Shown here: piece by piece, positions 20,718 through 57,845 of the stretch
How the letters are laid out: every line of letters begins with the position of its first letter
How positions within the stretch are numbered: the stretch's first letter is position 1
NCBI RefSeq assembly: GCF_006716565.1
Contig: NZ_VFPG01000001.1
Span: forward strand, 2,356,001 to 2,420,000
Length of the DNA stretch: 64,000 nt
Direction of reading: 5' to 3'
Source: Nocardia bhagyanarayanae
Lineage (GTDB): Bacteria; Actinomycetota; Actinomycetes; Mycobacteriales; Mycobacteriaceae
The notes under the pieces: generated by a model
The model's database searches: none
What the model saw: only the letters and a program-made list of their open reading frames with translations
What the model was told of the DNA's origin: nothing
Program-made: the position numbers and the translations under genes

Positions 20718-23700
20718 TTGGACCGGCTGGATTTCGGCGGGAACGGCGAAGCTGGTGGCGAATACTTCCCGCTGTCGCCCGCACAGCTGGGCATCTGGTA
20801 TGCCCAGCACGTCGATCCGCAGGTGCCGATCAACATCGCACAATATGTCGACCTGCGCGGTGACCTCGATGTCGCCGCGCTGGAGCAGGCCAGCCGCGAG
20901 GCCGCGCTGGAGCTGGGCTCCGGCTTCCTGAAGGTCGTCGAACTCGACGGTCAGCCGTTCCAGACCGTCGACCCCACGCAGGACGCCACGCTCGAGTACG
21001 TCGACCTGCGCGACGCCGCCGATCCGGAAGCCGCCGCCGTCGAGTGGATGCACGCCGAGTACAGCCGCCCGCTGGACATCGTCGGCGATCGCCTGATCCG
21101 TGCCGCCGCCCTGCGGCTCGAGGATTCCCGCTGGTTCTGGTACTCGCGCGCGCACCACATCGCGCTGGACGGCTTCGGCGCGATGACCTTCGTCACCAGG
21201 ATCGCCGAGCGGTACACGGCCCTGGTGAACGGCGTCGAGCCGGCCCCGGCCAAGAACGCCGACCTGAAGTCGCTCTACGAGTCGGAGATCGCCTACCGCG
21301 ACAGCTCCCGCTTCCAGGCGGACCGCGAGCACTGGGCCGAGCGGGTCGCCGGTCTGGAAGAGGGTTCCAGCCTGGCCGGTCGCTCCGCGCCGCCCGCCCC
21401 GGTCAACGGTGTCTCCAGCGCCGCGCTGTCGCCGGAGCAGGACGCGCTGCTCGCCGAGGCCGTCGCCAAGCACGACAACTCGCCCGCCGGCCTGCTCATC
21501 GCCGGTTTCGCGACCTACCTCGCCCAGCTGACCGGCGCCGAGGACGTGATCCTCAGCCTGCCGGTGACCGCACGCACCACCGCGACCATGCGCCGTTCCG
21601 GCGGTGTGGTCTCCAACATCGTGCCGCTGCGCCTGCGGGTCGGGCACGACACGACGGTCGCCGAGCTGCTGAAGTCGGTGCAGGTCGAGGTGTCCGGCGC
21701 GCTGCGGCACCAGCGCTACCGGCACGAGGACATCCGCCGCGACTCGGCGGGCGACGGCGTGGTCACCACGGAGTTCTTCGGCCCGTGGGTGAACATCATG
21801 CTGTTCCACAGCGAGATGGTGCTCGGCCCGATGGTCGGCCAGCTGAACGTGCTGTCCACCGGCAGCATCGAGGACCTGGGCGTCAACTTCTACCAGTCGG
21901 TCGCGGGCACCCGCTCGCACATCGACTTCGAGACCAACCCGAACCTCTACACCGCCGACGAGGCACGCGCCCATCACGGCCGGTTCCTGGAGTTCTTCGA
22001 CCGGTTCCTGGCCGCCGACGCCGACGCGCGGGTGTGGGAGCTGCCGGTCACCACCGAAGCCGAGCGCGAAACCACCCTGGTGGAGTGGAACGACGCCGAA
22101 CAAGACGTCCCCGAGACCACCTTGGCGGCGTTGCTGGACGCCCAGATCCCGCTGACTCCCGACAACATCGCCCTCGATTTCGAGGGCGAAACGCTGACCT
22201 ACGCCGAGTTCGGCGCGCGGGTCAACCGGTTGGCGCGGTTCCTCGTCGCCGACGGCGTTGGCCCGGAGTCGCTGGTCGCTTTGGGCATGCGGCGTTCGCT
22301 CGAGCTGGTCATCGGCATGCACGCGGTGCTCAAGGCCGGTGGCGCCTACGTGCCGATCGATCCGGACCATCCCGCCGATCGCACCGCCTACATCCTCGAG
22401 TCCGCCGATCCGGTGTGCGTGCTGACGCTCTCGCACGACGAACTCGAGCTGCCGGAAACGGTGCGGCGGGTCGAGATCGACACCCTGGATGTGTCGGAGT
22501 TCTCCGACGCCCCGGTCACCGACGCCGACCGGTTGGCGCCGCTGCGCCCGGCCAACACCGCCTACGTCATCTACACCTCCGGCTCCACCGGTCGCCCGAA
22601 GGGCGTGGCGGTCACCCACCACGCGATCGTCAACCAGCAGCTGTGGATGCTCGACGAGTACCGGCTCACCGCCGACGACGTCTACCTGCAGAAGACCGCG
22701 ACCACCTTCGACGTGTCGCTGTGGGGCTACTTCCTGCCGTTGATGGTCGGCGCGAAACTCGTCGTCGCCGCCCCGGATGGACATCGTGATCCGCTGTACG
22801 TGGCGCAGATGATCCAGCGCCACGGCGTGACGGTCACCGACTTCGTGCCCTCGATGCTGACGGTGTTCGTCGCGCACGCCACCGCCGAGCAGTGCGCGAC
22901 GCTGCGCGCGGTGTTCGTGATCGGCGAGGCGCTGCCGCCGGAGACCGCCGCGGGCTTCCGCGCGATCACCTCCGCGGGCCTGCACAACCTGTACGGCCCC
23001 ACCGAGGCCGCGGTCTCGGTGACCTACTGGGAGGCCACCGCCGCCGACACGGTGACGGTGCCGATCGGCATCCCGGAGTGGAACGTCGAGGTCTACGTGC
23101 TGGATTCGCGGCTGCGTCCGGCCGCGATCGGCGCCCCCGGTGAGCTGTACCTGGGTGGACGCCAGCTGGCTCGCGGTTACCGCGGCCGACCCGACCTGAC
23201 CTCGGATCGCTTCGTCGCCAACCCGTTCGGCACGAACGGTGAGCGCATGTACCGCACCGGCGACCTGGTGCGGTGGAGTCCCGCGGGGACGTTGGAGTAC
23301 ATCGGCCGTACCGATTTCCAGGTGAAGTTCCGCGGTCAGCGGATCGAGCTGGGCGAGATCGAGACCGTGACGCTGGCGCACCCGGCGGTGAGTCAGTCGG
23401 CGGTGCTGGTGGTCGACACCGCGACCGGCCAGCAGCTGGTGGCGTATGTGGTTCCCGCGCCGGGTCATTCGATCGATCCGGCGGAGCTGACGCGTTTCGC
23501 CTCCGAGCAGTTGCCCAGCTACATGGTCCCCGCGTCGGTGATGGTGTTGGATGCGTTCCCGCTCAACACTTCCGGCAAGCTGGATCGAAAGGCGTTGCCG
23601 GAGCCGGTGTTCGCCGCGGACGCCGGTTATCGCGCGCCGCGCACCCAGGCCGAGCAGATCGTGGCCGGGATCTTCGCCGATGTGCTGAGCCAGCAGCAGA

Positions 23701-57845: not shown

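Follow-up and report, generated by a model that had tools for sequence, protein, structure and literature searches.

Among the NRPS systems already described (papers are cited here and below for the accessible portions of their text), the closest to the locus reported here include cluster #35 of Komaki 2014 (PMC4035055), a Ser-rich NRPS of seven Nocardia strains, with 12 modules in five of them, that probably makes a 12-residue peptide of unknown role and is treated there as separate from cluster #4. Mannle 2020 (PMC7413640) delineated a large NRPS family, GCF 6, with invariant nitropropane dioxygenase, metallopeptidase, esterase, epimerase and enoyl-CoA dehydratase neighbours; Ceniceros 2017 (PMC5550956) described Ser/Thr-rich, starter-C lipopeptides in Rhodococcus; and a 2025 survey covers 263 Nocardia genomes (PMC12153302). 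The giant NRPS gene analysed here, in a 64,000-nt stretch of Nocardia bhagyanarayanae DNA (the window, G000:C1:2356001-2420000 of a two-contig, 7.56-Mb genome), matches nfa50330 by description and with it the #35 family (nfa50330 and homologues). An earlier note on this DNA, made without database searches, had reported no known matching product; we too found no product in the literature searched, but the gene family itself was already on record as #35 (PMC4035055).

The open frame runs from 20616 up to the TAG at 57843-57845 (12,409 codons), and the list of open reading frames begins it at the first TTG (20688-57845). We consider the TTG at 20718 the better start, because it is preceded by GAAGCGAGG and because the DNA 5' of it is conserved while its reading frame is not; one-base indels occur in this region in G095, G049 and G082. 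G+C by codon position (0.73/0.47/0.93), together with conservation in other species, argues against a chance frame, and a pseudogene or assembly artefact was rejected given orthologues across Nocardia and low dN/dS. The single unbroken 37-kb frame and the ten modules first read from this DNA both stand, the latter as ten complete C-A-T modules (Table 1).

Table 1. Features of the giant NRPS gene (window positions) and candidate partner genes (genome positions); module boundaries are approximate throughout.
Feature	Position	Strand	Remarks
Near-invariant 20-nt leader GGTGTTCCGGAAGCGAGGTT, containing SD-like GAAGCGAGG	20694..20713	+	directly 5' of giant gene
Giant NRPS gene	20718..57845	+	TTG start, TAG stop, 12,375 aa
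Module 1: starter-type C, A (DVWDFILVS), T	20751..23867	+	domain matches, aligned pocket
Module 2: C-A-T, DFWNVGMVH, Thr pocket	23868..27137	+	aligned pocket
Module 3: C-A-T, DVWHFSLVD, Ser pocket	27138..30344	+	aligned pocket
Module 4: C-A-T, DVWHFSLVE, Ser-like pocket	30345..33554	+	aligned pocket
Module 5: C-A-T, DFWNVGMVH, Thr pocket	33555..36848	+	aligned pocket
Module 6: C-A-T, DALFVGGIM, aliphatic pocket	36849..40031	+	aligned pocket
Module 6 epimerase, motifs intact	40065..41477	+	
Module 7: C of post-E type, A (DVWHFSLVD, Ser), T	41535..44654	+	aligned pocket
Module 8: C-A-T, DFWNIGMVH, Thr pocket	44655..47903	+	aligned pocket
Module 9: C-A-T, DVWHFSLVD, Ser pocket	47904..51092	+	aligned pocket
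Module 10: C-A-T, DLWHLILVS pocket	51093..54311	+	aligned pocket
Degenerate epimerase (HRFAVDA, AGDGRA; both motifs destroyed)	54312..55712	+	
Terminal eleventh C, HHVLLDG (HHxxxDG) intact	55728..57047	+	nearest PDB match SrfA-C
A*: truncated adenylation domain without P-loop	57114..57842	+	no T or TE behind
Candidate partner, class-I A-T start, TE end	G000:C1:599462-614896	-	
Candidate partner, class-I A-T start, TE end	G000:C1:555405-572189	-	
Candidate partner, class-I A-T start, TE end	G000:C2:134533-151344	+	

Pocket residues in the window were read by alignment, the motif-based reading having misread some pockets. Following the Stachelhaus codes, we take pockets 2, 5 and 8 to specify Thr, 3, 7 and 9 Ser, 4 a Ser-like and 6 an aliphatic residue; the same pockets had been proposed before, and the alignment agrees with them and with the Ser/Thr-rich chain that they imply. 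We know of no Stachelhaus code that matches the pockets of modules 1 and 10, and a literature text search for their strings (DVWDFILVS and DLWHLILVS) found no paper. By motif-based reading, the module 1 pocket is D[VL]WD[FY]ILVS in 20/20 orthologous genes. Complete modules number 10, 12 or 14 by hand count, never an odd number, in the 19 orthologous genes that were read whole, and it may be that modules are gained and lost in pairs. Peptidolipin NA has seven residues, and ten modules plus a half module do not fit it, as had been judged earlier.

At the start of the protein, C1 has RzmA-Cs and CDA-Cs as its best PDB matches and classifies as a starter C. In RzmA, position 148 sets acyl length and position 138 contributes (PMC7804268); the equivalent residues are Ala in 19/19 and 18/19 Cs domains, respectively (G106 unreadable), and an acyl chain of C8 or more, drawn from acyl-CoA, is therefore suggested. 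N-acylation is probable from the starter-type C1, in keeping with the lipopeptide proposed in the earlier note.

That note did not mention the other end of the protein, with its degenerate terminal E, eleventh C and A* stub and its lack of T and TE. A* comprises 276 aa similar to the beginning of an A domain, ending ahead of motif A5; thioesterase matches were found in nine NRPS frames of the same genome (4,522-8,463 aa) and none in the giant gene. In 72/72 orthologous ends, a set without L060 (no domains), the frame closes 261-288 aa past the terminal C, the motif of which is intact in 71/72; some organisms are counted twice, as L and G loci, in these and in the neighbour and downstream-partner counts. 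The exception is N. altamirensis (L055), where the terminal HHxxxDG was not found and the E region is also gone. That one gene makes a whole decapeptide is unsupported: the decapeptide is more likely an intermediate, because the protein ends in a C-A* half module that is elsewhere completed by the next gene.

Purifying selection acts on the terminal C and on A*: median dN/dS over 15 close pairs each was 0.12 for the last A, 0.16 for the terminal C and 0.18 for A* (range 0.08-0.57), and A* and terminal C stay below 0.6 in 15/15 pairs. The medians were 0.15 for intact E (7 pairs) and 0.32 for dead E (6 pairs). With 29 orthologues, AlphaFold2 predicted a folded A* (block pLDDT mostly >70; whole model 81.5, pTM 0.58), and Foldseek aligned this model over the length of C-A structures, TycB and SrfA-C among them. 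The terminal E is intact in 42/42 orthologous ends with an aliphatic-type last pocket and dead or deleted in 28/29 with DxWH..S (the last pocket of L057 is unreadable). The one exception, Nocardia sp. CNY236 (L059), is also the sole end that has DLWHLILVS as last pocket together with an intact-looking epimerase. On the tree of terminal ends, built without L055, last pocket and E decay show 4-5 changes and agree in 3/3 independent pairs, which is not significant (p = 0.25); our guess is that an achiral last residue would account for the dead E.

A search of other Nocardia genomes, which the earlier note had proposed, recovered an orthologous A* tail (E <= 8.1e-47) in 132/148, and also in 60 named Nocardia loci. 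The closest named relative, N. amikacinitolerans, has 97% identity across the terminal C and A*, and N. farcinica NCTC 11134 has 86.5% DNA identity over 3 kb of the giant gene; in the latter strain the orthologue (L001/L002, on a 2.66-Mb record named plasmid 2) is split into two overlapping frames. Rhodococcus plasmid matches had no clear C-A* end in any of the three examined, and a weak match in an Acidimicrobiia MAG (L063) was excluded. No neighbouring gene is constant. The commonest upstream family, a cobalamin-type methyltransferase, occurs in 13/19 loci, and the commonest downstream family, TetR, in 40/79, followed by a redoxin and a GDSL-type hydrolase in 31/79 each (all named by eye). 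MbtH genes lie at C1:801547 and C1:2340807, neither adjoining the giant gene.

In other genera of the family (genus codes g15, g16 and g20), a gene ending in C-A* is followed by one that opens on an Arg-rich stretch and then a complete A-T (G161, G162, G166, G188, G191, G206 and G222), and the same order is found in other NRPSs of Nocardia (G089, G104, G109, G140, G136, G095, G044 and G048). Of 14 further loci, 12 have such an A-T gene immediately behind the C-A* gene; the other two are G125, a giant-gene orthologue, and G206, where the partner lies further on. The line of G191 runs from a protein of 13,303 aa (ending in C-A*) to one of 5,569 aa (A-T to C-A*) and one of 4,580 aa (A-T to TE); G162, G206 and G222 have the first and middle subunits of this plan, and G166 the start of the middle subunit. 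By this gene order the C-A* end is, in these loci, a subunit junction, new here, at which the complete A-T of the next gene forms the other half of a split module. No description of a C-A*//A-T junction was found in the literature searched, which included the accessible part of PMC9113145 and beyond which subscription papers mostly lay. We define the split-module class by a terminal C followed by a truncated A without T, as in the window gene, and by a next gene that starts with A-T, which the window locus lacks.

Two classes separate both in the tree of A* (34 rows) and in that of the opening A of the subunit behind it (36 rows), and they match in 21/21 adjacent pairs (9 class I, 12 class II; mid_G222d, with no readable partner, lies outside these pairs). 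In these quick trees SH-aLRT support is 94 on the branch that divides the starts, and class-II A* has 99. Such a match could stem from common descent of the locus, without docking specificity. The window-gene A* falls in class I. Behind the orthologous giant genes of G054, G070 and G114 (N. camponoti, L061), A-T-C-A-T-C-A-T genes follow at about 1.1-1.5 kb, and G077 has two paralogues with adjacent A-T partners. In G114 (L207, G114:C2:570700-590699) two class-I-start genes of 3,043 and 3,131 aa stand in tandem; the first has a TE motif, the final 300 aa of the second yielded none, and the arrangement suggests alternative acceptors. In 76/80 loci, the window included, the downstream stretch examined (median 6 kb; less than 2.5 kb in L008, L022, L057 and L060) contains no class-I start.

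Upstream of the window (G000:C1:2297332-2340811, L171-L173) lies a pair of NRPS genes of 6,028 and 8,463 aa, probably Komaki #36, with one of the MbtH genes just behind it. Among the NRPS frames examined in this genome, the 6,028-aa gene is the only other multi-module frame that ends in C plus a stub; the 8,463-aa gene directly follows it, starts with an A-like stub and then A-T, and ends in TE. The facing ends thus both carry short A-like stubs, possibly another docking solution.

The giant gene carries the only strong class-I A* in its genome (E 3e-107; next 6e-36). The three candidate partners of Table 1, in table order, have 5,144, 5,594 and 5,603 aa and 5, 5 and 4 A domains; they lie about 1.8 Mb from the giant gene or on the other contig, and none of their class-I starts has an upstream C-A* gene. 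A profile search found class-I starts in 148/148 Nocardia genomes (one to four each, in 58, 40, 35 and 15 genomes, respectively), including 16/16 without a class-I A*. Co-occurrence therefore failed as a test of partnership: class-I starts are independent of the class-I A*, and class-I-start genes may start chains themselves. Relatives of the 5,594-type TE (E <= 1e-60, paralogues included) occur in 73/78 genomes, and those of the other two candidates in 53/78 and 56/78. The 5.6-kaa gene begins in class II in G044 and G048, where a separate class-I gene of 2.4-2.5 kaa precedes it, whereas in our genome, G020 and G075 the 5.6-kaa gene itself has the class-I start; this looks like rewiring of one line, without being proof of it.

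The leader 20-mer of the giant gene occurs once per genome in 119/148 Nocardia genomes, and its reversed control never; it precedes the Cs motif by 81-129 nt in the 16 loci where this was measurable, and is absent from 15 of the 16 genomes that lack a class-I A* and from 14 other genomes. It has no Rfam match, and covariation (term +1.02) lends no support to an RNA structure. The leader speaks for a dedicated control of the giant gene, and no leader shared with the candidate partner genes was found. A different motif, ACGCGAGAGG or ACCCGAGAGG, stands close before the ATG of class-I starts in the window's genome (5,594 and 5,603 aa), G044, G048, G009, G020 and G075, and was not seen before the 5,144-aa gene.

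We consider it moderately likely that the giant protein is where a lipopeptide synthetase of several subunits starts its chain, and that it passes this chain to another subunit in trans. The starter C would acylate the residue of module 1 from a fatty acyl-CoA, probably one of C8 or longer, and modules 2-10 would elongate the chain into an N-acylated decapeptide whose one D residue is at position 6. There would be no release; instead, the terminal C would link the T10-bound decapeptide to an amino acid held on the starting A-T of a separate subunit, with A* as a putative docking element, and this second subunit would add further residues until its TE releases the product. In the window's own genome the partner would be non-adjacent, and the three TE-ended, class-I-start candidates would give 14-15 residues. 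Cross-talk between distant NRPS loci is described for rhodochelin (PMC7502451). It is tempting to go further, although we would call the extension doubtful rather than probable, and to see in the giant gene a near genus-wide hub subunit that feeds several alternative subunits encoded elsewhere (on two contigs in the window's genome), its truncated A recognising the full A-T of each partner, such that one genome would make several lipopeptides, each about 14-15 residues long, alike in their head and differing in their tails; G114 would then display the hub and two tandem class-I-start genes at one place.

Hand-over has evidence against it: class-I starts are found in every one of the 148 Nocardia genomes, even in all 16 that lack the class-I A*; few loci have an adjacent partner (none in 76/80); and the leader of the giant gene is not common to the candidates. 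A terminal C can, moreover, release a chain onto a free amine, as in glidonin, where it adds putrescine and the other domains of the last module serve stability (PMC10587159). The window gene might likewise be a complete line, its terminal C releasing the chain onto a small free amine, or as a ring onto a Ser/Thr hydroxyl, while A* only stabilises C. We hold this to be unlikely, though worth serious attention: it would suit the many loci without an adjacent partner and a terminal C motif that is kept in 71/72 ends even with E dead or deleted, but selection on A* runs at the level of that on the terminal C, and the partial A of glidonin is the other subdomain, with T and TE following it (PMC10587159). 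Release by the terminal C is treated as a rival because A-T genes stand directly behind other C-A* genes in related loci.

An account in which the partner has been lost in most Nocardia seems to us improbable. The line would then stall or leak, with hydrolysis or a stand-alone thioesterase releasing the chain (the genome does have stand-alone thioesterase matches), and class-I-start genes would be independent, self-initiating lines, workable without the class-I A* as they appear to be in the 16/16 genomes that lack it; partner and giant gene occur together in only one Nocardia clade. Against such loss, no decay is seen: all 15 pairs show constraint on both A* and terminal C, and A* is kept in 132/148 genomes along with the near-invariant leader. 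That C-A* pairs with an unrecognised partner rather than with class-I starts we regard as very improbable. The 6,028/8,463-aa line, only about 36 kb upstream, would be an example, since its second gene offers an A-T behind its A-like stub; that stub, however, has its counterpart at the end of the first gene of the same line, its A start falls in neither class I nor class II, and N. brasiliensis has the giant gene without a line of this type (Komaki 2014, PMC4035055).

Should hand-over in trans hold, the 12-mer predicted for #35 and the 6- and 5-mers predicted for #4, both among the best conserved orphan NRPS clusters in Nocardia, may each be part of a longer lipopeptide, and genome mining cluster by cluster would misread the chemistry, since the two halves are encoded at distant sites. 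A conserved Nocardia lipopeptide would then be expected at joined-chain masses, and not only as a deca- or dodecapeptide. The C-A*//A-T junction would likewise represent a natural cut between C and A, of use in understanding and engineering contacts between NRPS subunits.

Like Komaki #35, the family described here is a single giant gene across Nocardia with many Ser pockets, and its orthologues in G048 and G044 have 12 modules; the window gene differs in having ten, and in its C-A* end, which goes unmentioned in the accessible account of #35 as a complete line (PMC4035055). Komaki #4 (O3I_004080, 4085 and 4090) fits three G048 genes, of 2,454 aa (2 A, class-I start, C-A* end), 4,099 aa (4 A, TE) and 5,612 aa (5 A, TE), the A counts of which fit the six- and five-residue predictions for #4 (PMC4035055). 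Unlike the giant gene, #4 has no starter C and is encoded elsewhere, and it is possible that #4 represents the downstream half of the giant-gene line. Set against the invariant neighbours of Mannle GCF 6 (PMC7413640), the giant gene has a GDSL-type hydrolase 2.5 kb downstream, its flanks being named by eye, and no tie between GCF 6 and this gene was found. The starter C domains of RzmA and CDA are nearest to C1, with gate residues in the window gene that point to an acyl group longer than the C2 of RzmA (PMC7804268). The glidonin synthetase GdnB (C13-A*-T-TE) similarly places an inactive partial A behind its terminal C, but keeps the C-terminal A subdomain with T and TE behind it (PMC10587159), whereas the window gene keeps the N-terminal part of A and nothing after. 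COM, PAX and beta-hairpin docking elements likewise connect the subunits of one assembly line; COM domains, however, sit at E/C junctions (PMC9113145), while in the window gene the cut lies between C and A and leaves a truncated A.
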